The position numbers and the translations under genes were made by a program. The notes under the pieces are model-generated. The model was not told the origin of the DNA and made no database searches. It was given only the letters and a program-made list of their open reading frames with translations. From Candidatus Methylopumilus rimovensis (lineage in GTDB: Bacteria; Pseudomonadota; Gammaproteobacteria; Burkholderiales; Methylophilaceae), in the NCBI RefSeq assembly GCF_006364615.1, contig NZ_CP040986.1, positions 806,001 to 870,000 on the forward strand: a stretch of 64,000 nt of DNA, read 5' to 3'. The stretch's first letter is position 1. Each line of letters begins with the position of its first letter. Below, one piece after another: positions 34,007 through 60,535 of this stretch.

Positions 34007-34026
34007 GGAGTTTTCCTTTTAAAAAT

Positions 34027-34043
34027 ATGCAATTTTGTTGCAT
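34027..34043. promoter_or_regulatory. Zur-type operator A
   Basis: ATGCAATTTTGTTGCAT: 6-bp inverted arms ATGCAA/TTGCAT with 5-bp spacer, 20 bp upstream of the COG0523 start. 16-bp gap from operator B. Confidence 0.7.
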
Positions 34044-34059
34044 TATAAAAGAAAAAAAT

Positions 34060-49612: not shown

Positions 49613-49777
49613 ATGAAATCAAAAAAAGAAATTAAAACATCTAAGGGTCAAGGAAAAAAGACCGGTTTACAAAAAACAAAAGTGTTAAAAAACACAGATG
49701 AAAATATTTTTGTATGCAAACAAAATGATAAAGACTGCTGGCATCGATACTCTGCTGCAATGGGAGATTGTGTTTAA
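49613..49777 (+). CDS. 54-aa Cys micro-protein, C-x6-C-x10-C type
   Basis: A Lys-rich N-terminus (MKSKKEIKTSKGQGKKTG) is followed by FVCKQNDKDCWHRYSAAMGD and CV. Three Cys at C-x6-C-x10-C with one residue after the last. The same pattern occurs in a second micro-protein at 57753-57911. Good ribosome binding site (gagggg). It ends 96 bp before the convergent blh stop. Not recognised. Confidence 0.65.
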   Translation: MKSKKEIKTSKGQGKKTGLQKTKVLKNTDENIFVCKQNDKDCWHRYSAAMGDCV

Positions 49778-49873
49778 TTAATAGATACCAAAATAGGGTA
49801 TTTGATATGCCCCATTAAACTTTAATGACAACCTCTAGATTCTAAACCATTCTGAGAAGTTGATATGTTAAAA

Positions 49874-50758
49874 CTATTTATGCTCGCCGAGTAAATTTGA
49901 CAGAAAACGATTAATTGCTGGCCAAAACATATGGGAAATTGTAAGGGCCATTAAAATAGAAAAAATAATATTTAAATATTCAATCTGTAAATTCTCAAAA
50001 AGTACAAAGTAAGCAAAAAGAGTAACTGGCAAGGTAAAAATAATTAAAAATAAAAGATCTCGCAAAGAATTAATTCCGACGTTAATCAAGGCTCTAATGC
50101 CATGCAAAAAACAGAAATAAAAAGCAAACCAAAAAAGCGGTTGCAAAAAGCTAGCTAGAATAAGGGTTATTAGAAACTCTAAAAAAAGAAAAATCTTATC
50201 TTTTTTTGTAATGATATTACTTGTATAAACAAGAAATAGAAAACTAAAGCTAAAAAAAAGTGTAAGTATTTTAAGAGCAAGGAATACATTAGGGTTTATT
50301 TCAAAATTCACTAATATATCAAAAATGTTTTTAACATCATTTTCAAAAAAAATGACTGGCAGTAATGTCATAGCAAAGCCCCATGATACTTTCATCATTT
50401 GAGGAACTTTTTTTAGATATGTAAGATCGCTCTCTCCAAAATGGATAATAGACATTAAAATTAAGGAAACCAATCCAAGAGCAGGGCTTTGGAACCACAC
50501 AAACAAGCCTAAAAAAACTATGGATATATAAACTAAAAAAGCTATCGCTCTTGTTTTAATGTTTGAGTAAGCATTCCATATAACAATAGAGTCAGAAGCA
50601 CCGTGTGAAACACCAAGGGACATGATGATTACAAAAATGATAGCTAAAGATGAATTGATATCAGAAATTTTAAAGAAAGCATTCTGATGATTAAAAAACA
50701 TCAAAAAAAGTCCTGAAATCACATATATAGCTTGATGAACTCTTATCTTATTTAACAT
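49874..50758 (-). CDS. blh: Beta-carotene 15,15'-dioxygenase, Brp/Blh family
   Basis: 294 aa polytopic membrane protein. Conserved residues of Blh: VSHGASDSIV, IHFGESDL, CFLHGIRAL and TISHMFWPAI, giving the His set that binds the catalytic iron. It cleaves beta-carotene to two retinals, supplying the chromophore to both rhodopsins. Last gene of the rhodopsin/crt string; its start overlaps the crtY end by 11 bp. Confidence 0.93.
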   Translation of the reverse strand: MLNKIRVHQAIYVISGLFLMFFNHQNAFFKISDINSSLAIIFVIIMSLGVSHGASDSIVIWNAYSNIKTRAIAFLVYISIVFLGLFVWFQSPALGLVSLILMSIIHFGESDLTYLKKVPQMMKVSWGFAMTLLPVIFFENDVKNIFDILVNFEINPNVFLALKILTLFFSFSFLFLVYTSNIITKKDKIFLFLEFLITLILASFLQPLFWFAFYFCFLHGIRALINVGINSLRDLLFLIIFTLPVTLFAYFVLFENLQIEYLNIIFSILMALTISHMFWPAINRFLSNLLGEHK

Positions 50759-51875
50759 ATAAATTCAGCAAACCCTTAAGCATAATTATTTTAGGCAATT
50801 TCAAAATAATGGCTAAATAATCAATGAGCCTTGCTTGATCAGATAAGAATCTTATGACTGATGCAATAGGCACCTTTGTAAAAAAAATTCGGAATATTTT
50901 AGGTGCTTCTTTTGGATTTGATCTTAAGACAGAAAGAAAAATTTTATCTAACCAATTAGTAAGATATTTTTTTTTGTGATTTATCATTTCATATGAAAAT
51001 TGATTTTTTACATCTATTTGATTTGCCCACAAAGCAATTCGGGTAAAAGCATATCCAGAGGCGGGTCTAGAAGCTCCTCCAAAATTACCAATTCTAAAGT
51101 ATTGATTATCTGCTCTTGCTTCAGAATATGGCGACATCGGTAAAACAGCCTTTTCTGTCTTCAATATCTCTTTAATATTAAACTTCTTTAGATTTTTTTT
51201 GTGCAGCCTATCTACTTCTTTGAAGTTTATTTTTCGAGAAAAAAAAGTAGTCTCTACTAATGCCCTAGTTTTTGAGAAAGGAAGAATATAGGTAAAAATA
51301 ATATTTTTTTCAGATTCGAAAAAATCCATTAATGTGACAATATTTTCATTAAATATTTTTGTGTTTGAAACAACCTCAGAACCAATAAAAACTTGTTTTA
51401 ATGAAGGATACTTATCGTCAAACTTAATATTTGGTCTACTATCTGCTATATTTTTTAGTAAAATTTTTTTATTATTTAAATTAATTTCCCACTCATCATT
51501 AATTTTTTTAATCTGCTTAATTAAGCATCCCCGCTCAACTTTAATACCTTTCGTAACTAATCTTTTATAAAGCTCCTTTATAACTGATTTAGATTCATAG
51601 CATGCATACCGATAATCGCCTAAATCAATAATATGTGATTCACCTTTTACCTTAATTTCTAGCTGAGACCATTCTTTTTTAATTTTAATATTTAATTTTT
51701 TTTTAATATCTAAGAGACCTGGTCCCGACCAAAAACTATAGGTTTTATCATTTTCTAAAGTGCGATTTTTCTCTAATAAAATAAAATTATTAATTTTTTT
51801 ATTAAGAAGAGAATTCGCTAGAGTTAATCCAGATAGACCAGCGCCAATAATGCCAATATCAAATTTCTGTTTCAT
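50748..51875 (-). CDS. crtY: Lycopene beta-cyclase
   Basis: 375 aa. N-terminal FAD/NAD-binding motif GIIGAGLSGLTLANSLL, then SFWSGPG, and the RIGNFGGASRPASGYAFTRI segment typical of CrtY. It cyclises both ends of lycopene to beta-carotene. Overlaps blh by 11 bp and starts 3 bp after the crtB stop. Very Lys/Asn/Ile-rich, an effect of high A+T. Confidence 0.92.
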   Translation of the reverse strand: MKQKFDIGIIGAGLSGLTLANSLLNKKINNFILLEKNRTLENDKTYSFWSGPGLLDIKKKLNIKIKKEWSQLEIKVKGESHIIDLGDYRYACYESKSVIKELYKRLVTKGIKVERGCLIKQIKKINDEWEINLNNKKILLKNIADSRPNIKFDDKYPSLKQVFIGSEVVSNTKIFNENIVTLMDFFESEKNIIFTYILPFSKTRALVETTFFSRKINFKEVDRLHKKNLKKFNIKEILKTEKAVLPMSPYSEARADNQYFRIGNFGGASRPASGYAFTRIALWANQIDVKNQFSYEMINHKKKYLTNWLDKIFLSVLRSNPKEAPKIFRIFFTKVPIASVIRFLSDQARLIDYLAIILKLPKIIMLKGLLNLYVK

Positions 51876-51878
51876 ATA

Positions 51879-52769
51879 TCAAAAATGTGCGTCGGGTAGA
51901 TTATGAATAAATTTATGAAGATTTTTATTATGCAGCTTCATCTCTTGTTTAAATGAGGTCAAGTATTTTGTAATAATACCCAATGTAATCATAAACTTAG
52001 AAAAATTACTAACATAACACCTTTTTTCTTTACGCTCATAATGGGCTTTCATTAGCTGGTATCCAATTTGCTGGTATAAAGCTGAAGCTAATTTCACGGC
52101 AAGTGATGCGCCTTTGGGTAAATGGTCAATAGCTCGACTAGCGCTTTCAAAATAGATGTTCGCTAATTGAATCATTTTCTTTCGAGCTTCATCTATTTTT
52201 CTAGCTGTCTCCTTGTTTGGATTAGCAATTTCTTTAGCTCTATATTTCCCAATGAGACTTTCTGGCAAATAAACTCTGTTTCGTAGACTATCCTCATAAA
52301 TATCTCTCGAAATATTGACTAACTGCATCGCAATTCCTAAATCAATTGCAAAATATCGCATTTTTTTATCTTTTACCCCAAAAATATCACAGACCATTAA
52401 ACCGACAGTACCAGCAACTTGATAACAATAAACAATTAGAGATTTTTCTGATTTAAAGGTGGAAAATTTAATATCTGAAATTTGTCCATTTAAGAAATTT
52501 TTAACAAGTTTTTGGTTGGGCCAGTTTTCTTTTGGAATATCGCTCAACAAATTAATAACAGGATGTGATCTGCTCTTCTTCCATGCTTCCGTAAATATCA
52601 AAAGTCTTTTTTTTGCTATGTGGGTAGTTTTGGCTTCATCCACCATATCATCGACTCTTCGGCAGAAGCTATAAATTGAATAAATGGCTTGCATGTTCGA
52701 CTTATCAAGGAAAAGGGAAGCCCAATAAAAAGTCTTACCATGCTTACGCATGAGTAAATTATTTTTCAT
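51879..52769 (-). CDS. crtB: Phytoene synthase
   Basis: 296 aa from the ATG at 52769 (a TTG at 52790 would add seven residues). Squalene/phytoene synthase motifs: RRVDDMVDE first Asp motif and NISRDIYEDSLRNRVYLP second Asp motif, QQIGYQLM. It condenses two GGPP to phytoene. Overlaps the crtI end by 11 bp, so the genes are translationally coupled. Confidence 0.94.
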   Translation of the reverse strand: MKNNLLMRKHGKTFYWASLFLDKSNMQAIYSIYSFCRRVDDMVDEAKTTHIAKKRLLIFTEAWKKSRSHPVINLLSDIPKENWPNQKLVKNFLNGQISDIKFSTFKSEKSLIVYCYQVAGTVGLMVCDIFGVKDKKMRYFAIDLGIAMQLVNISRDIYEDSLRNRVYLPESLIGKYRAKEIANPNKETARKIDEARKKMIQLANIYFESASRAIDHLPKGASLAVKLASALYQQIGYQLMKAHYERKEKRCYVSNFSKFMITLGIITKYLTSFKQEMKLHNKNLHKFIHNLPDAHF

Positions 52770-54240
52770 GTTTAGGAATAAGCTTATCAATAACTTTGGC
52801 AGAGTTCAAAACACCGGGAACACCAGCACCTGGGTGAGTACCTGCACCCACATAAAAAAGATTCTGATATAAATCATCTTTATTGTGAGTCCTAAACCAA
52901 GCAGATTGTCTAAATAGAGGTGCTATAGAGAAACCAGACCCGAAAGGTGTATTGTAATCTTGAAGAAAGTTTTCTGGAGTCATATAAAATGATTCGCAAA
53001 TGGTTTCAGTAAGTTTTGGCATCATTGTTTGTTCTAATGCTTTGATAATTGATTTAATGAATGCGGGCGCTTCATCCTCCCAAACTATATTCCCTTTCAA
53101 GTTCGGAACTGGAATTAGGGCATAAAAACTATCACAACCGATAGGTGCAAAATTAGTATCAGTTGCTGTGGGTCTATGAAGATAGATAGAAAAATCGTCA
53201 GCCAATTTGTGAAGGTCAAAAATATCACTTAATAGCTCTTTGTATCTTGGTCCCATCCATATCGTATGATGAGCAATATTTTCATACTTAACTTTTGTTC
53301 CAAAGAAAAGGACAAATAAGCCCATTGAATGTTTTGCTGTTTTATTAATAAATTTGTTATGGAGTGAGATTTTCTGATTGTCTATTAAATGATTATTTGT
53401 ATAAATGGGATCTGCATTTGTAATTAAATAGTCAGTTTTATAAAAATCTCCTTTTGAATTTACAATACCGTCGACTTTTTGCTGTGAAGTCACAATCTTA
53501 TTAATCTCACTATTTAAAAAAATATTAATCCCTTTTCGCTCCATAAGCATTTTTAATTGAGAGACTATTTCCCCGGTGCCACCTTTAGCAAAAAATACTC
53601 CCCATTTTTTTTCTAGTGCATGAATCAATGCATATATAGAGGTTGTATTGAAAGGATTACCACCCACGAGTAAGGGTTGAATTGAAAATGCTTGTCTTAA
53701 GTTTGGATGCTTTAAATAAGTTGAAACAAACTGATAAACAGATTGATAGCCTTTTAATTTAATAATATCGGGGGTATACCGAATCAAACTGCTTAGTTTA
53801 TGAAAAGGTTGGTCAGCAAGCTTAAGGTAGCCTAATTCAAAAATTTTCTCAGCATGTTTAAGCATTTTAAGGTACCCATTCACATCTTTAGGCTCAAAAG
53901 CTTTGATTTGCTCTAATAATTCATCTTGATTTGGACCATAGTTAAAAAATGATCCATCATGAAATCTAAAGCGATACCATGGATCTAAAGGTATGAAATT
54001 AATAAAATCATCTATTTCTTCACCAAAAATTTCAAATAACTCTCTAAATAAATAAGGCGCTGTTATAACTGTAGGGCCAGCATCATGAATAAACCCATTT
54101 TGATTGAATTGTCTTGCTCTTCCGCCAAGTTGATCAAGCTTTTCATGTAAATCAACTTCATACCCCTTTGCTCGCATTCTCAAAGCAGCTGCAATACCGC
54201 CGAAACCACTTCCAATGACAATAATTTTTTTAGTTTGCAT
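52759..54240 (-). CDS. crtI: Phytoene desaturase
   Basis: 493 aa from the ATG at 54240, within the last codons of crtE. N-terminal FAD motif IVIGSGFGGIAAALRMRAKGYEV, HEKLDQLGGRARQF, and C-terminal GAGTHPGAGVPGVL as in bacterial CrtI. It converts phytoene to lycopene. Full length, coupled to crtE and crtB by overlaps. Confidence 0.95.
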   Translation of the reverse strand: MQTKKIIVIGSGFGGIAAALRMRAKGYEVDLHEKLDQLGGRARQFNQNGFIHDAGPTVITAPYLFRELFEIFGEEIDDFINFIPLDPWYRFRFHDGSFFNYGPNQDELLEQIKAFEPKDVNGYLKMLKHAEKIFELGYLKLADQPFHKLSSLIRYTPDIIKLKGYQSVYQFVSTYLKHPNLRQAFSIQPLLVGGNPFNTTSIYALIHALEKKWGVFFAKGGTGEIVSQLKMLMERKGINIFLNSEINKIVTSQQKVDGIVNSKGDFYKTDYLITNADPIYTNNHLIDNQKISLHNKFINKTAKHSMGLFVLFFGTKVKYENIAHHTIWMGPRYKELLSDIFDLHKLADDFSIYLHRPTATDTNFAPIGCDSFYALIPVPNLKGNIVWEDEAPAFIKSIIKALEQTMMPKLTETICESFYMTPENFLQDYNTPFGSGFSIAPLFRQSAWFRTHNKDDLYQNLFYVGAGTHPGAGVPGVLNSAKVIDKLIPKHEK

Positions 54241-55177
54241 GTGAGAATTGATGGGATCTTTTTTCAATTTCTTCGCTTAAAGAAGAAATAATAGGTCTGA
54301 TGACGACTGGCATAAGATGTAGAGAATTTTTAATGCCATGTAGAATATTCTCAATTTTAAAAATTAAATCATCTGCAATATTTGATGATAAAAGATATTG
54401 CTTTAACTCGCTCTTATTTTTCTTAAGGAAATTTATTTCTTTTTCGGAGGACTTTTCCTTAAGTAAAACAATAAGTGCATTCACTCTCTCAAATTTAATA
54501 TCTGTGGGAATTTCGTTATGTTGGCTGATTAAAATATTTTCTAAGTCATTCACTATTTGGTAGGCAAGCCCCATTTCGTCTGTTAATTTTCTTAAGTGCA
54601 TATAATAAGGCTCTTCTAGCTCTCCACATTTGAACATACCCATAATAGGTAAACAAATAAGTGGTGATGTTTTAGCTGTTGCAAGTTTTATATATTCTTC
54701 CCAACTTAAACTTAAAAAATTCGTATTGACGTCTCCCGATTGACCGAATACGATTTCCTTAACAGTTCCTGAAAGCAGGCTAAGTAAAATATTCTGATGC
54801 CAGCCCTGCTCAATTTCAGTGATTTTTCGAAACGACTCAGCAATCAAATAATCGCCTGTGCATATTGCAGCTGGAATTCCAAAATTCTTCCAAACACTTA
54901 CCTTGCCTCTTCTTATTTCATCGCTATCGCAAATATCATCGTGAAGTAAAGATGCGCTATGAATTAACTCACAAACAACAGACCAAATAATTGCTGTGTG
55001 TTTAGAGATTCCTAAGGCTTCACCGGATGATAAAGCTAAGTGCGATCTGATTAATTTACCTTCTGATCTGCCATGCCAATTTAACCACTGAGATAAGTTT
55101 TTCTCGTCGACATCAAAAGACATCGCCAGATGTTTTTTTACAATACTTATGGAGTCGCTTTCGTCTGTATACATCAT
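54230..55177 (-). CDS. crtE: Geranylgeranyl diphosphate synthase
   Basis: 315 aa polyprenyl synthase. The first Asp-rich motif is intact (HSASLLHDDICDSDEIRRG). The second, normally DDxxD, reads YQIVNDLEN, losing the first and last Asp. The usual KT-containing segment TAKTSPLICLPI is present. It makes GGPP for carotenoids. It is first of the crt genes, 56 bp after the second rhodopsin in the same direction. Confidence 0.85.
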   Translation of the reverse strand: MMYTDESDSISIVKKHLAMSFDVDEKNLSQWLNWHGRSEGKLIRSHLALSSGEALGISKHTAIIWSVVCELIHSASLLHDDICDSDEIRRGKVSVWKNFGIPAAICTGDYLIAESFRKITEIEQGWHQNILLSLLSGTVKEIVFGQSGDVNTNFLSLSWEEYIKLATAKTSPLICLPIMGMFKCGELEEPYYMHLRKLTDEMGLAYQIVNDLENILISQHNEIPTDIKFERVNALIVLLKEKSSEKEINFLKKNKSELKQYLLSSNIADDLIFKIENILHGIKNSLHLMPVVIRPIISSLSEEIEKRSHQFSHAN

Positions 55178-55233
55178 TAATTTATTTAAAAGAAAGCATA
55201 TAGAAATTTAGCTTATTTAGATAAAAGGCTTAA

Positions 55234-55959
55234 CTAGGCACCAATTTCAGATTTTCTTTGCGCGATAATGTATATCAAAATGCCAAAAACTGATTTAGCA
55301 ATAATATCTACGAAGGTATATCCCACCTGAATACTTACAAATGCAGAAAAACCTAGCAAGGGAAGAATATAAACTAAAGGGTAAAATGACCAAGACAATA
55401 TAATAAGTAATCTTGTTTTCTTAAATAACGGTTGAACAATCATAGGTTGGGTTTTGATTGACATTCCTATGCCATAAACCATTTCGTAGAGTATGTATGA
55501 GAATGGAATCATGGCTAAAATCCACCAAATAATCTTAGCAAATCCAATAGTAAGCGTTTCGCCAGGATAGCCCAATAAGACCATAAGGGCTGATGCTGCA
55601 ACCAAGGCAAATCCTTTTTTGTATGTCTCTGAATGAGGCAATCTTAAAATTAAAACAAACTCTAAAAGCAAAAGAGGGACTGTTAATAACCAGTCAACAT
55701 ATCGATATGCATTGTTAAATTGCATACCGCTTTCTATCACTAAACCATCTTTTAATAAGTATGCATTATTAAAACTTTCGAAAATCCTTAGGTAGTGATA
55801 CGTTGTGATCAAACAAACAAGACTTGAGAGAGTTAATGCAGTTTTATATGCAGGAGATACTTGCGATCTTTGCAATAGAAAAAAAATAGTTGAGGCTCCA
55901 AAAGCAGCAATTGCAAATGAAATTGCGTTATAAACTAAATTAAACTCAACATTATTCAT
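55234..55959 (-). CDS. Second rhodopsin, xanthorhodopsin/actinorhodopsin-type proton pump
   Basis: 241 aa, seven helices, no signal peptide. Helix C FNNAYRYVDWLLTVPLLLLEF places acceptor D89, T93 and donor E100 (DTE, outward proton pump). L97 at the spectral-tuning site predicts green absorption. H55 in helix B pairs with D89. The retinal lysine is K222 (AKSVFG). Long B-C loop and the GYPGE motif are traits of the xanthorhodopsin/actinorhodopsin group. The helix E site that is Gly in antenna-binding members is Trp here (WW at 145-146). Co-directional with crtE. Confidence 0.9.
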   Translation of the reverse strand: MNNVEFNLVYNAISFAIAAFGASTIFFLLQRSQVSPAYKTALTLSSLVCLITTYHYLRIFESFNNAYLLKDGLVIESGMQFNNAYRYVDWLLTVPLLLLEFVLILRLPHSETYKKGFALVAASALMVLLGYPGETLTIGFAKIIWWILAMIPFSYILYEMVYGIGMSIKTQPMIVQPLFKKTRLLIILSWSFYPLVYILPLLGFSAFVSIQVGYTFVDIIAKSVFGILIYIIAQRKSEIGA

Positions 55960-56024
55960 CGTATGGGTATATCGATTTTGTTACTTGGGCTTTTGATATA
56001 TTTAAATTTAAAGGCAAAAAATAA

Positions 56025-56056
56025 AAAAACTGTGTAGCCTAAGCCACACAGTTTTT
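56025..56056 (-). terminator. Strong terminator between the two rhodopsin genes
   Basis: AAAAACTGTGT and ACACAGTTTTT form a perfect 11-bp stem with a 10-base loop between the proteorhodopsin stop and the second rhodopsin start. The A/T tails make it usable on the minus strand (and in principle both). It should make most proteorhodopsin mRNA monocistronic. Confidence 0.88.
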
Positions 56057-56072
56057 TTAATATATTACATAC

Positions 56073-56858
56073 TTACTTAGATTCTGAAACAGCTACAGAC
56101 CAAATAATTACACCGAATGCAATTTTATTTAAAACATCAGCTAAGTTATAGATAATGTTTAATGATGCCATGCTGCTTGCAGGATCAGCGCCAGTTAAAT
56201 ATCCGAAATAGTAGCCTAATGGATAAATTGCCCATCCAAAAGTTACAATTAATCTCATAGTGTTAAAAGCTTTTTGCACAGTTGCAGGAGCCTTATTTGC
56301 ACTAATTTTGCTTGCTTCGCCAGCAAAGATTTCGTAAAGGATATAGAACCATCCAAGCATACCAACGATAAATGATGTCATCACGTCAGCATAGCCAGCT
56401 TCGCCAACATAACCGCCCACAAGCATTACTAATGTACCAATTACAAGTCTCCAAAAAACACCTGTTGATACTTTGGTAATTGCAGATAGGATCAAATAAA
56501 ACTCAATCATTAATAGTGGTACTGTAATGAGCCAATCAATATATCTATAAACTGTTGGTGTTGATCCAGTTGCGACCCACACGTCACGCATATAGAAATA
56601 GTGAACAGCCGCTACTAATGTAACAAGTCCGGACACAGTGAGAGAAGTTTTCCACTTACCTGCTACACGATCTCTTTCGAGGAAGAAGAAAGCAGTTGAA
56701 GCAACTAATGCCATTGAGATTAGCCAAAAGGTAATACCAACAAAATCGCTTGATTGAAGCACTTGACCTGATGTAGCAAAAACTGATGTTGATAAGCCTA
56801 ATAAAGACAATCCTAATAAGCACTTATTTCTTAGGGATTTAAAAAAACCTTGAAACAT
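56073..56858 (-). CDS. Green-absorbing proteorhodopsin
   Basis: 261 aa with an N-terminal signal peptide (ending SVFAT) and seven helices. Helix C YRYIDWLITVPLLMIEF: acceptor D108, T112, donor E119 (DTE, light-driven outward proton pump). L116 corresponds to position 105 in the classic numbering, predicting green absorption. H86 in helix B (AVHYFYM), retinal lysine K245 (NKIAFG). Strong Shine-Dalgarno (caggagg). Carotenoid genes and blh downstream supply retinal. Terminator follows. Confidence 0.96.
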   Translation of the reverse strand: MFQGFFKSLRNKCLLGLSLLGLSTSVFATSGQVLQSSDFVGITFWLISMALVASTAFFFLERDRVAGKWKTSLTVSGLVTLVAAVHYFYMRDVWVATGSTPTVYRYIDWLITVPLLMIEFYLILSAITKVSTGVFWRLVIGTLVMLVGGYVGEAGYADVMTSFIVGMLGWFYILYEIFAGEASKISANKAPATVQKAFNTMRLIVTFGWAIYPLGYYFGYLTGADPASSMASLNIIYNLADVLNKIAFGVIIWSVAVSESK

Positions 56859-56881
56859 AAGAACCTCCTGTTGATTGAAAA

Positions 56882-56902
56882 AAACTTTAACGACTAAAGT
56901 TT
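56882..56902 (-). other. 5' UTR hairpin of proteorhodopsin
   Basis: AAACTTTA/TAAAGTTT 8-bp perfect arms with 5-base loop, 24 bp upstream of the proteorhodopsin start and just before its Shine-Dalgarno. Likely part of the transcript leader. Confidence 0.5.
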
Positions 56903-56929
56903 AGATAATTAAATGTAGCATTAATAAAA

Positions 56930-57166
56930 TTATCTTGAAGAAAGTTTACACTCTAACTTTAGGGTTGTTATATATATTTTTATTCTATTGATTTCATTCA
57001 TGATTATCATTAACCATAAAACAAATATGGGAATAAATAAAAACCTATATAGTGTTGATTTTTTGTAATCAAAGGAATAAATTGGATTAGCTAAAAATTT
57101 ATTTCGACGTAAATTTTTTCCTAGGTTCGCCCCTTCTTTTTTTATTTGCTTACTAAATCCTTGCAT
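56930..57166 (-). CDS. Doubtful 78-aa membrane protein
   Basis: An ATG-started frame with a basic N-terminal half (KQIKKEGANLGKNLRRNKF) and one hydrophobic segment (about 41-56). No ribosome binding site ahead of the ATG. It occupies the region where the proteorhodopsin promoter should be. It may be a chance frame in low-complexity DNA; listed only because no other gene covers this stretch. Confidence 0.25.
   Translation of the reverse strand: MQGFSKQIKKEGANLGKNLRRNKFLANPIYSFDYKKSTLYRFLFIPIFVLWLMIIMNEINRIKIYITTLKLECKLSSR
56996..57014 (-). promoter_or_regulatory. Fur-box-like sequence upstream of proteorhodopsin
   Basis: ATTCATGATTATCATTAAC matches 15 of 19 positions of the Fur consensus, the same score as the box at 44161. 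It lies about 140 bp upstream of the proteorhodopsin start. Confidence 0.4.
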
Positions 57167-57243
57167 GAATAGAGAAAGAAGGGGTTTTGTTTATTAAAAC
57201 ACCCTCAAACTTAACGCCTCATCTCCTCATTAAGTAATAATAT

Positions 57244-57747
57244 TTAAAGTACCCAATTTATATCTCGTAAAAAATGGCATGAATAGCCATCCGGGTATTT
57301 CTTTAAGTATTTTTGGTGATTTTCTTCAGCGGGGAAAAATGAGCTGAATGTAATTACCTCTGTTGTAATTTTTCTTGAAAGCGCACCTGACGCATCGATC
57401 TTTTTAATTAAATCTTCGGCCATCATGATTTGTTCATTATTGGTTGCGAAAATAGCTGATCGGTATTGAGTGCCTAAATCATTGCCTTGTTGATTAAGCG
57501 TTGTGGGATCATGTATTTTAAAAAAGAATAAAAGTAAGTCCTTAAAACTTAAAATATCAGAATCAAAAACGACTTTTACTGTCTCTGCATGCCCTGTTGT
57601 ACCGGTTGTGACTTCTCGATAACATACATTTTTAACATGCCCGCCGGAGAAACCTACCGTTGTATCAACAACGCCCGGAATTCCACTTAAAAGATTTTCT
57701 AAGCCCCAATAGCAACCACCTGCCAAATATACTGTTTCATTAGCCAT
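57244..57747 (-). CDS. msrA: Peptide-methionine (S)-S-oxide reductase MsrA
   Basis: 167 aa from the ATG at 57747 (MANETVYLAGGCYWG). An upstream ATG at 57762 would run into the preceding micro-protein. Catalytic Cys in GGCYWGLE, plus DPTTLNQQGNDLGTQYRS. It reduces S-sulfoxide of methionine residues in the cytoplasm. It begins 5 bp after the stop of the C-x6-C-x10-C micro-protein, so the two are co-translated. Confidence 0.94.
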   Translation of the reverse strand: MANETVYLAGGCYWGLENLLSGIPGVVDTTVGFSGGHVKNVCYREVTTGTTGHAETVKVVFDSDILSFKDLLLFFFKIHDPTTLNQQGNDLGTQYRSAIFATNNEQIMMAEDLIKKIDASGALSRKITTEVITFSSFFPAEENHQKYLKKYPDGYSCHFLRDINWVL

Positions 57748-57752
57748 TTTAA

Positions 57753-57911
57753 TCAAGCACAATCAGACTGTGATTCAAGCCATCTTTTAGTGCATGCTTT
57801 ATCTTCAGCTTTACAGGGGAATTGTTCCGGAAGTGTTAAAGCTTTAATAGCTGCTTCTGTTGCTAAATCTTTAACTTTTCGGTTTTTATTTTTATCTTCT
57901 TTATTAATCAT
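57753..57911 (-). CDS. 52-aa Cys micro-protein, C-x6-C-x10-C type
   Basis: A charged N-terminus (MINKEDKNKNRKVKDLA), then a helix, then FPCKAEDKACTKRWLESQSD and CA. The three Cys have exactly the spacing of the micro-protein at 49613-49777, sharing F-x-C-K-x-x-D-K-x-C-x-x-R and D-C-x at the C-terminus. Good ribosome binding site (aaaggtg). Its TGA is followed 5 bp later by the msrA ATG. Not recognised. Confidence 0.75.
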   Translation of the reverse strand: MINKEDKNKNRKVKDLATEAAIKALTLPEQFPCKAEDKACTKRWLESQSDCA

Positions 57912-57994
57912 ATTTACACCTTTTGGGTTCTTAAAATTATTAACTTATGGTTAACGCATTTAAGATTCGATGTAAATTTATTAGTTCCAAGAAG

Positions 57995-58727: not shown

Positions 58728-58886
58728 TTAATTTTTTGATAGCCGTTTTTTCTCTAATTCTATTTTTTTGCTGTCATCTGGCTTTGAAGAGATCATTTTT
58801 TCACCATCCCACCTTTGACCGCACCAACAAATACCTTGAGCATTAATGATACAGACTCCTCTTCCACAGCATCTTTTATCTTCCAA
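58728..58886 (-). CDS. 52-aa Cys-rich micro-protein, TTG start
   Basis: Starts at TTG with a strong Shine-Dalgarno (aaggag, 8 bases upstream). Reads MEDKRCCGRGVCIINAQGIC followed by WCGQRWDG and a charged tail. Five Cys in the first 22 residues in a CC-x4-C-x7-C-x-C pattern, likely metal- or cluster-binding. The compact CCGRGVCIIN...CWCGQ.W pattern looks conserved rather than random. Function unknown. It lies 128 bp upstream of aox, same strand. Confidence 0.65.
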   Translation of the reverse strand: MEDKRCCGRGVCIINAQGICWCGQRWDGEKMISSKPDDSKKIELEKKRLSKN

Positions 58887-58997: not shown

Positions 58998-59942
58998 ATG
59001 AAGATAAAAAAAATACCGTCATCAGAAATTACGCCTGAGCATATTTATATTGATCGTCGACATTTTATAAAAAATTTAGGTTTAATTTTAGGTTCAACTG
59101 CGCTCTCTGCATTTGCAAATAAAAGTTTTGCAGCACTTCATACACTACCTTCATTTGCTCAAGCTAAAGAGCGAGAAAAAGAAAAGCTATCCTCACTTAA
59201 GGACATCACAAGCTATAACAATTATTATGAATTCGGTACTTCAAAATCTGACCCTTATGACTACGCAGAAAAATTAAATATCGACCCTTGGTCAATCTCT
59301 ATTGAAGGTTCTGTGACTAAACCACTCAAATTAGATTTGGATGAACTTATAAAAGAGATGCCTTTAGAAGAGCGCATTTATAGACTTCGATGCGTCGAAG
59401 GTTGGTCGATGGTCATCCCTTGGGTGGGTATTCCATTACATGCATTACTTAAAAAAGTGTCCCCGAATGGAAATGCTAAGTATGTGGAATTTGTCTCCTT
59501 AAAACGGCCAAGTGAAATGATTGGCCAAAAAGATGACATGCTCGATTGGCCCTATACCGAAGGCCTAAGATTAGATGAAGCGATGCATCCTTTGACGATA
59601 TTAGCAGTGGGTTTATATGGAAAAGTTTTACCTAAACAAAATGGTGCGCCTATCAGATTAGTTGTGCCATGGAAATATGGATTTAAGAGCATTAAAGCGA
59701 TTACAAAAATTAGATTAGTAGAAAAAATGCCTATATCTACTTGGATGAAAGCAAACCCAAAGGAATATGGTTTTTACGCAAATGTGAATCCTAAGGTTGA
59801 TCACCCTCGCTGGTCACAAACCACTGAAAGAAGAGTGGGTGAAAGTTTATTAACACCTCGACTAAAAACCCAGATGTTTAATGGCTATCAAGAAGAGGTT
59901 GCTCACTTATATCAGGGCATGGATCTAAATAGGTATTTTTAA
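58998..59942 (+). CDS. msrP: Protein-methionine-sulfoxide reductase catalytic subunit MsrP (YedY)
   Basis: 314 aa. Twin-arginine signal DRRHFIKNLGLILGSTALSAFA. The molybdopterin ligand Cys lies in LRCVEGWSMVIPW. A conserved RLVVPWKYGFKSIK segment follows. Periplasmic molybdoenzyme that repairs oxidised methionine in exported proteins. It forms an operon with msrQ (5 bp). Confidence 0.95.
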   Translation: MKIKKIPSSEITPEHIYIDRRHFIKNLGLILGSTALSAFANKSFAALHTLPSFAQAKEREKEKLSSLKDITSYNNYYEFGTSKSDPYDYAEKLNIDPWSISIEGSVTKPLKLDLDELIKEMPLEERIYRLRCVEGWSMVIPWVGIPLHALLKKVSPNGNAKYVEFVSLKRPSEMIGQKDDMLDWPYTEGLRLDEAMHPLTILAVGLYGKVLPKQNGAPIRLVVPWKYGFKSIKAITKIRLVEKMPISTWMKANPKEYGFYANVNPKVDHPRWSQTTERRVGESLLTPRLKTQMFNGYQEEVAHLYQGMDLNRYF

Positions 59943-59947
59943 GCCTT

Positions 59948-60535
59948 TTGAAGTTAAATCAAATATATATCAAACGTTTAATTTTTATCATAAGCCTTTG
60001 GCCAATTTTATCTCTTAGTGTTGCTATATTCCTAAATAATCTTGGAGCTAATCCAGTCGAATTTATTGAGCGTCATTTTGGTAAGTGGGCACTGATTTTT
60101 TTGTGTCTAACATTAAGCATGACGCCTTTAAGAAGAATCACCCATATGAATCAATGGATTTTATATAGAAGAATGTTAGGGCTTTTTACTTTTTTCTATG
60201 CAACAGTGCATCTTCTTTGCTATATAGGGCTCGATTATCATTTTGCTTGGATTGATATAAAAAATGACATCATTAAGCATCGCTATGTACTTGTGGGTTT
60301 TTTAGGATGGCTTTTGTTATTACCTTTAGCTATTACTTCATCAGACACAATGATGAGAAAGCTTAAATTTAATTGGAAAAGGTTACATCGTCTTATTTAT
60401 CTAATAGCTATTCTAGGTGTACTTCACTTTTTATGGCTAGTTAAAAAAGATATCACCGAGCCACTCATTTACGCCCTCATTATTTTCATATTATTTCTAT
60501 TGAGATTAAATATGTTTAAGCGACAAAAGCTTTAG
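59948..60535 (+). CDS. msrQ: Heme-binding membrane subunit MsrQ (YedZ)
   Basis: 195 aa, TTG start 5 bp after msrP. About six membrane helices with heme-ligand His (FFYATVHLLCYIGLD, KRLHRLIYLIAILGVLHFLWL) and the LSMTPLRRI segment. It delivers quinol electrons to MsrP. Together MsrP/Q and MsrA cover both periplasmic and cytoplasmic methionine repair within 3 kb. Confidence 0.93.
   Translation: MKLNQIYIKRLIFIISLWPILSLSVAIFLNNLGANPVEFIERHFGKWALIFLCLTLSMTPLRRITHMNQWILYRRMLGLFTFFYATVHLLCYIGLDYHFAWIDIKNDIIKHRYVLVGFLGWLLLLPLAITSSDTMMRKLKFNWKRLHRLIYLIAILGVLHFLWLVKKDITEPLIYALIIFILFLLRLNMFKRQKL

Follow-up and report, generated by a model that had tools for sequence, protein, structure and literature searches.

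Several described systems resemble parts of what we report here. CP12 is a tiny, largely disordered protein with paired cysteines that is common to cyanobacteria and T4-like cyanophages. The downstream-peptide and glutamine-type RNAs are structured leaders that precede short open reading frames (ORFs) in cyanobacteria and phages, and ANTAR proteins read dual-hairpin RNA targets with like loops (hexaloops) at a terminator. In the C-terminal arm of DsrC/TusE proteins, according to an extract of PMC3397948, a strictly conserved penultimate cysteine takes the persulfide, and the DsrC type has an additional cysteine 11 residues upstream. Here we describe two microproteins, mp1 and mp2, and an RNA leader, encoded in a 64,000-nucleotide stretch of the genome of Candidatus (Ca.) Methylopumilus rimovensis (NZ_CP040986.1, positions 806,001 to 870,000; hereafter the window). 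The explanation we prefer, at a probability of roughly 0.4, is that these proteins are free-standing thiol arms that would work like the DsrC/TusE tail, under translational control.

Each of these comparisons holds in part. All of the microproteins carry a cysteine as the penultimate C-terminal residue, a likeness to DsrC/TusE that we tested. In the three-Cys subfamily only, a second cysteine 11 residues upstream gives C-x10-C-x-COOH, as in the DsrC type, while most of the copies preceded by the RNA leader (element-led copies) lack the upstream cysteine, as TusE does. Of the two DsrC arms that we read (L280, L284), that of a DsrC of genome G153 ends in ACKIAGLPKPTGCI-stop and that of another copy in TKYGGLPKPTGCV-stop; their last residue, V or I, is a further likeness. 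With CP12 the family shares its tiny size, a largely disordered chain, paired cysteines and its occurrence in both host and T4-like phage, but it differs in its single-Cys forms and methylotroph hosts, and a Pfam scan of mp1 and mp2 gave no CP12 match. As with the downstream-peptide and glutamine-type RNAs, a structured leader stands before a short ORF, but the RNA is a different one, with no Rfam match. Two hairpins with like loops recall the ANTAR targets, but here the loop is the pentaloop CANAA, and it lies over the ribosome binding site rather than at a terminator. Literature searches on Methylophilaceae microproteins, OM43 small ORFs, structured RNA in Methylotenera and pentaloop repression in phages found nothing relevant. 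The protein and the RNA are new to the libraries that we used; their broad kind, a small thiol protein shared with phages and subject to translational control, is known.

A microprotein family with a penultimate cysteine

The initial annotation of the window proposed that two tiny ORFs with the same cysteine spacing, one on each side of a set of rhodopsin and carotenoid genes, belong to a real, undescribed family. An ORF check found both where it had placed them, mp1 beyond blh and mp2, with msrA, beyond a rhodopsin gene (Table 1), and pairwise BLASTP aligned the two at E = 2e-5, with 9 of 22 residues identical. Their common core is F-x-C-K-x-x-D-K-x-C-x-x-R-[WY]-x5-D-C-x, with the cysteines spaced C-x6-C-x10-C-x-stop. 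In DNA form the motif has two matches in the window, mp1 and mp2 themselves, compared with a mean of 0.00 over 100 shuffles, so that it is not a chance product. By eye, a Shine-Dalgarno-like sequence precedes both ORFs, and the ATG of msrA (57747) lies 5 nt past the stop of mp2.

Over the last 23 codons, the ratio of nonsynonymous to synonymous polymorphism (pN/pS) was 0.09 for mp2 and 0.14 for mp1. With 0.18 for mp1b, the C-terminal values span 0.09-0.18 across three cellular groups, and one phage group gave 0.30. The second and third cysteines, R and D are invariant in a 16-row alignment of homologues, as are C33, D37, C40, R43, D50 and C51 in alignment A6, whose 28 rows were all selected as three-Cys. 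Taken together, these sequence comparisons indicate that mp1 and mp2 are real, homologous and under purifying selection that is strongest at the C-terminus. An AlphaFold2 model of mp2, which we regard as modest evidence (mean pLDDT 73.5, approximately 88 in the motif; pTM 0.35), predicts helices at residues 16-25 and 38-49, with C33 ahead of the second helix, C40 in its first turn and C51 past its end.

The two proteins are members of a family of microproteins, probably cytoplasmic, of approximately 30-67 amino acids (aa) in Methylophilaceae and phages. Homologues were found, and searches of Pfam, NCBIfam and PHROGs gave no match above chance (best E 0.12 in Pfam and 0.06 in PHROGs), which bears out the proposal of an undescribed family. 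Over all scans of these libraries, those with relatives included, every match was sub-threshold (best E 0.01-0.1), and Foldseek with the predicted structure returned 0 matches.

The constant part of the family is the C-terminal tail D-C-x-COOH, whose last residue in cells is mostly V, A or I. Judged from the sequences, the penultimate cysteine is the constant feature, and the first and second cysteines of C-x6-C-x10-C are the mark of a subfamily. Three-Cys forms occur in Ca. Methylopumilus (g1, the genus of the window genome), in g15 (apparently the marine KB13/LSUCC group), in g20, in one metagenome-assembled genome labelled Methylotenera and in phages. Single-Cys forms are spread over nine Methylophilaceae genera, and for that reason are probably the older. 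Strict pairing of the cysteines is contradicted by L004, an mp2 orthologue that has lost the first and kept the second and third, and by L064, which has a cysteine in the second place and none in the first. The conservation of all three cysteines, which the initial annotation had named as a check, stands for the second and third in the 16-row alignment and fails for the many relatives that lack the first two.

These counts bear on two other explanations. Three cysteines close together might bind a soft metal, Zn or Cu(I), within one chain or between two, so that the protein would act as a metal chaperone or buffer, and DoxX, ferritin-like and (by eye) azurin-like genes are found near some copies. 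However, most element-led members have only one or two cysteines near the tail, and no constant metal gene lies alongside; we consider metal handling improbable. Short peptides ending in cysteine are also typical precursors of modified natural products of the MNIO/DUF692 type, and an MNIO gene was found in 40 of 60 family genomes, many of them larger Methylophilaceae. However, a search of 13 genomes from g1, g15 and g20 found PF05114 in none, even though most three-Cys copies come from g1 and g15, and no maturase was recognised by eye beside the copies read. On this absence we reject an MNIO-type precursor peptide for the pelagic genera (g1 and g15), and find such a precursor barely credible overall.

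Besides mp1 and mp2, the window genome (1.28 Mb, one contig) has a third copy, with a single cysteine, at C1:99002-99166; a fourth profile match at C1:555026-555064 (E 0.014) was rejected, as no family ORF exists there (L096). In 120 family genomes, searches with single proteins at E <= 0.1 found mp2-like sequences in 20 and mp1-like sequences in 26, some of them weak chance matches, and the 16-row profile matched in 50 of 140 family genomes at E 0.5, where the weakest are not all real. One genome, G054, has three mp1b copies within approximately 11 kb. Among 300 genomes of the order, the protein profile matched in 5 genomes outside Methylophilaceae (E 0.017-0.043), in frames with stops or in longer ORFs. 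A scan of 84,980 species genomes for the three-Cys motif yielded 32 stretches, which on reading were 25 family members and 7 chance matches; the records of the 25 are named Methylophilaceae, Methylopumilus, Methylotenera or parent groups. The collection scans required all three cysteines and are therefore uninformative on single-Cys forms outside Methylophilaceae.

A covarying RNA leader

A leader hairpin with the pentaloop CANAA and freely varying stems was first noticed upstream of phage genes. Defined as CANAA at -52 to -26 with at least 4 bp and at least 1 G-C, it precedes 43 of 49 phage mp genes, compared with 0 of 667 other ORFs in the same deduplicated 50 viral loci, and the same rule found it before 0 of the 65 window ORFs of at least 100 aa. 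In 33 distinct leaders, 7 of 7 pairs of hairpin 1 had changed on both sides and the covariation score was 1.01, compared with 0.26 shuffled (0 of 500) and at most 0.25 when slid; these slices had been picked for at least four paired positions, so that the inner four are paired by choice while the range of pair types is not. For 70 distinct cellular leaders, picked with no pairing requirement from loci supplied by the R1 and R2 models described below, the score was 0.91 compared with 0.24. Both hairpins together scored 0.82 compared with 0.22 in 24 leaders (6 of 8 pairs). By covariation above the column-shuffle and slide controls, the leader is a structured RNA. Folding energies are modest, with z scores of -0.6 to -4.8 in six leaders other than that of mp2, and the case for the leader accordingly rests on covariation rather than stability. 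A second hairpin, with the loop [CU]A.[AC]A, lies over the Shine-Dalgarno sequence or start codon in 49 of 70 leaders tested for it, mp1 types being among the misses. In Rfam, only tRNA and tmRNA matched at the gathering score, and only chance-level matches appeared in E-value mode.

The hairpin is absent from 25 of 91 members, among them mp1, mp1b, the ahpF-linked copy and phages L148, L151, L164, L166, L170 and L172; L174 is counted among the 25 only through a wrong start. Separately, the mp1 leaders (L118 6680-6751, minus strand, and others) may fold a different hairpin over the Shine-Dalgarno sequence (CUCAUACAAACUAUUUGUGAGG).

Two covariance models showed what else the leader precedes. 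R1, built from 13 mp2 and phage leaders and run on 16 genomes of the genus, recovered mp2 leaders at E 2e-11 to 2e-10 and, unprompted, the leaders of single-Cys copies (E 0.01-0.4) and of a 102-aa exported two-Cys protein (E 2e-4 to 0.004). One R1 match, L219 (E 3e-4), lies ahead of a short-chain-dehydrogenase-like gene and was not listed by R2; weaker matches at L215, L217 and L223 were read as chance or terminators. R2, built from 24 leaders and run with strict filters on 140 family genomes, matched 85 times, in 65 genomes that represent 9 of the 24 genera. What follows was read for all 85 matches, for three of them by position versus profile matches only. Although found by the RNA model and not chosen by protein, 68 of the 85 end in DC plus one residue. 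Of the others, 12 are exported proteins with two cysteines (the 102-aa type and its relatives in g15), 2 are copies of a 26-aa ORF and 3 were read as chance: L258 (before an acyl-carrier-like ORF), L270 (between two nuo-like genes) and L271 (in a protease-like ORF), these genes being named by eye. Two further element-led ORFs lack CANAA in the place searched. The window genome has three leaders, those of mp2, the thiS-linked copy and the exported protein. The single match to the RNA model outside the family, in G178, was rejected, being antisense within a 612-aa ORF.

Leader and protein move together between host and phage, and some members are lysine-rich, as might be expected if the microprotein bound both CANAA loops, in its own leader and in those of co-regulated exported proteins. 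But mp1 and mp1b are lysine-rich yet leaderless, and the exported proteins behind the leader are unrelated to the family, so that a host factor would do equally; we judge such autoregulation to be improbable as well.

Two side observations concern the RNA. Tandem elements occur at L268 1617-1809 and L269 2433-2599, one before a 26-28-aa ORF (WQPQTD.DLNWLNNPKK) and one before an exported two-Cys protein. In the window, R2 also matches 34013-34045 on the minus strand (E 0.0025), between zur-like and GTPase genes (by eye) and without hairpin 2; this match is probably a terminator.

Table 1. Coordinates in the window of the microprotein genes, the mp2 leader and adjacent genes
Feature	Position	Strand	Description
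mp1	49613..49777	+	54 aa, C35-x6-C42-x10-C53-V-stop
mp2	57753..57911	-	52 aa, C33-x6-C40-x10-C51-A-stop
5' leader RNA element of mp2	57915..57957	-	covariance model R2, 46 bits, E 2.5e-7; itself one of the 24 R2 training rows
Hairpin 1	57939..57955	-	GUUAAC-CAUAA-GUUAAU, pentaloop CANAA
Hairpin 2	57918..57928	-	ACC-CAAAA-GGU, contains Shine-Dalgarno AGG
msrA, peptide methionine sulfoxide reductase	57244..57747	-	PF01625 E 3e-59
Rhodopsin genes, tandem pair	55234-55959 and 56073-56858	-	Bac_rhodopsin; approximately 33% identical where cross-matching

Neighbouring genes and phage copies

Families found around the copies include ThiS, ThiG, PMSR, AhpC, AhpF-type and ferritin-like proteins. For 39 distinct element-led DC ORFs, ThiS/ThiG was nearby in 25, msrA in 8, dps/ferritin-like genes in 2 and none of these in 4. 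The msrA gene follows mp2 in g1 and likewise in g15, a second genus in which the microprotein has a quite different N-terminus. Three g15 genomes have a 41- or 32-aa copy inside or after ahpC-ahpF (L068, with DoxX; L067; and L082, its ahpF-like ORF by eye), and in a Baikal Methylopumilus (L028) a ferritin-family gene adjoins mp1. The thiS-thiG, msrA and ahpC/ahpF neighbours fit thiol or sulfur chemistry. The initial annotation had suggested a redox or metal-binding partner; msrA, ahpC, ahpF and the ferritin-like neighbours make a redox or thiol role plausible, while the metal-binding half is kept only as the rival given above.

The order of genes bears on another alternative, in which the ORF is a translated leader peptide whose arrest would control the gene downstream. 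The distance from D-C-x to the stop is strict, mp2 abuts msrA, a g15 copy lies 66 nt before ahpF, a phage copy (L148) precedes ahpC, and in two g7 genomes (L260, L261) a dienelactone-hydrolase-like gene is next on the same strand. However, mp1 and the other thiS-linked copies whose surroundings we read face a convergent gene (blh, dlh or gnd) and have no gene after them on their own strand, and we regard an arrest peptide as very unlikely.

Membership of a phototrophy island, which the initial annotation had inferred from the flanking positions, is not supported by comparison among genomes. Of 15 genomes of the genus searched, three contain both proteins (G000, G063 and G072), and the rhodopsin genes are bracketed at both ends in G000 and G072 only. 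In G085, mp2-msrA adjoins the rhodopsin-carotenoid genes; in G013, G054 and G091, mp1 lies approximately 8 kb away from the rhodopsins; and the 10-19 kb that we read around the mp-msrA pair contain no rhodopsin match in two g15 genomes or in G063, where the contig is 10 kb long. Because the bracketing is not conserved, we dropped the reading of the proteins as phototrophy partners.

The three-Cys pattern matched 67 stretches in IMG/VR, of which 65 encode family members and 2 do not (L140 and L181); many are near-copies, and removing overlaps left 50 loci. Of 52 stretches from a second viral scan, five have a hairpin of at least 4 bp at the pattern: L301 and L316, which belong to the family, and three non-members. 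Eight neighbour proteins (in L141, L148, L151, L163 and L174) match PHROGs, and the set comprises a single-stranded DNA-binding protein, DNA polymerase, clamp loader, translation repressor, helicase, endolysin, GroES and a thioredoxin domain. From this set, the tested contigs look T4-like. A TAAATA late-promoter-like box lies upstream of 41 of 47 mp genes, compared with 53 of 667 other ORFs. An AhpC-family gene directly adjoins the mp gene in L148 and L166.

Contig L166 also has a glutaredoxin and a fragment of a PQQ alcohol dehydrogenase, which we take to be of the methanol-dehydrogenase kind; among the matches listed, the fragment shares 88-94% identity with g1 sequences (94% with a gene of one g1 genome) and no more than 85% with those of other genera. 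T4-like viruses of Methylophilaceae with methanol dehydrogenase are described in PMC7678222, and in host family, phage type and the L166 fragment they resemble the phages found here, as far as an extract of that paper goes. That extract makes no mention of the microprotein or the leader, nor does an extract of PMC13059738. Two phage forms searched by tblastn against 50,697 records of cultured phages returned 8 and 1 records, which at a best E of approximately 2 were read as chance. As a separate observation, the T4-like phage contig L148 (IMG/VR 3300047557_002442) encodes, besides GroES and AhpC, a betaproteobacterial-type permuted tmRNA and a gene that by eye is porin-like.

In a 74-row tree built on few columns, the set that holds mp2 consists of 4 rows from cells and 3 from phages (support 98/99) and is nested in a larger one with 14 rows from phages and 4 from cells (95/85), and mp1 falls in cell-only sets. 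From this placement mp2, and not mp1, has seemingly been exchanged with phages, in either direction.

The related phages L316 and L301 have the same N-terminus, with the Cys pair in one only. This difference, a short and poorly conserved N-terminus before a conserved helix-plus-tail, the capture by phages and the oxidative-stress neighbours might all suit a redox-switched regulator resembling CP12, in which a disordered protein closes its Cys pair on oxidation and inserts its tail into a host enzyme, inhibiting it, so that phages would redirect metabolism. But the single-Cys forms are the widespread ones, so the pair is not core, and neither a CP12 match nor a constant enzyme neighbour was found; we hold this to be rather unlikely.

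A putative thiol arm

If the microproteins are indeed free-standing arms, the penultimate cysteine would be a reactive thiol that carries sulfur or electrons, like the flexible arm of DsrC/TusE. Its partner would be another protein, perhaps one in a sulfur-transfer step where thiS-thiG is close by and perhaps one in the turnover of oxidised thiols where msrA or ahpCF is, and the extra Cys pair would add a disulfide switch. A trans-acting RNA-binding protein or small signal may hold the two like loops and block the ribosome, and thiol or sulfur stress would release the block. Phages may supply the protein late in infection, which would keep host thiol chemistry working. Of 25 Methylophilaceae searched for PF04358, the DsrC/TusE family, none has it; among 16 other genomes of the order one does, and so does the E. 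coli control.

A bolder version is doubtful, namely that the family is a new autonomous carrier class: a domain-less DsrC/TusE-like arm that replaces the missing TusE in Methylophilaceae, governed by a dual-pentaloop RNA switch that would sense thiol or sulfur state and also act on the exported two-Cys proteins, and carried by T4-like phages, at times with a peroxiredoxin, so that thiol chemistry would continue in the infected methylotroph.

A number of observations weigh against the arm and its control by the leader. No PF04358 match was found in mp1 or mp2 (Pfam to E 10), the first cysteine of the microproteins has no counterpart in the DsrC arm, and no DsrC-like fold is predicted, so that the likeness consists of spacing and position. 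The last residue in phages is often D, C or G. The neighbourhoods are mixed, with no constant partner. On the RNA side, the count of 49 of 70 for hairpin 2 has no control of its own and a few may be chance; in mp2 this hairpin has three pairs only, and the mp2 leader folds no better than shuffles (z 0.11). In the leaders of the exported proteins the third pair is mostly missing, R2 under its strict filters matched nothing in 75 of 140 family genomes, and mp1 and its close paralogues have no CANAA leader, so that a single regulation cannot cover the family. In addition, PF04358 was not found in five single-Cys relatives and two exported proteins (Pfam to E 1), and the microproteins differ from DsrC/TusE in size, 52 aa and two short helices compared with a globular domain of approximately 110 aa with an arm, or about half the length. 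Because spacing and position are the same but sequence and fold are not, we do not file the microproteins as DsrC/TusE members.

Among the methylotrophs of lakes and the sea, Ca. Methylopumilus and OM43-type bacteria are common. That a protein family and an RNA element without a match in the libraries occur across a bacterial family and its phages points to unmapped basic physiology, perhaps in sulfur or thiol handling, and to a host function that is worth carrying for phages. The RNA element offers a direct handle, since a binder of the CANAA loop would lead to the signal and the regulon, and the element may also serve as a host marker for uncultured phages.

Three minor observations concern other genes. 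A 52-aa Cys-rich protein (MEDKRCCGRGVCIINAQGICWCGQRWDGEKM...) is encoded at 58728-58886 on the minus strand of the window, with no Pfam match at 1e-5, and occurs also in other Methylopumilus genomes and in g15 (L085). Close to msrA, at 58998-60535 on the plus strand, lies a pair of molybdopterin oxidoreductase and ferric-reductase-like genes, presumably msrP/msrQ from their position. Exported repeat proteins with FKPFHPTDALLIGGNG.FN.G.EY units are found in Methylopumilus at L066 7260-7505, L219 982-1239 and L056 10964-11221.

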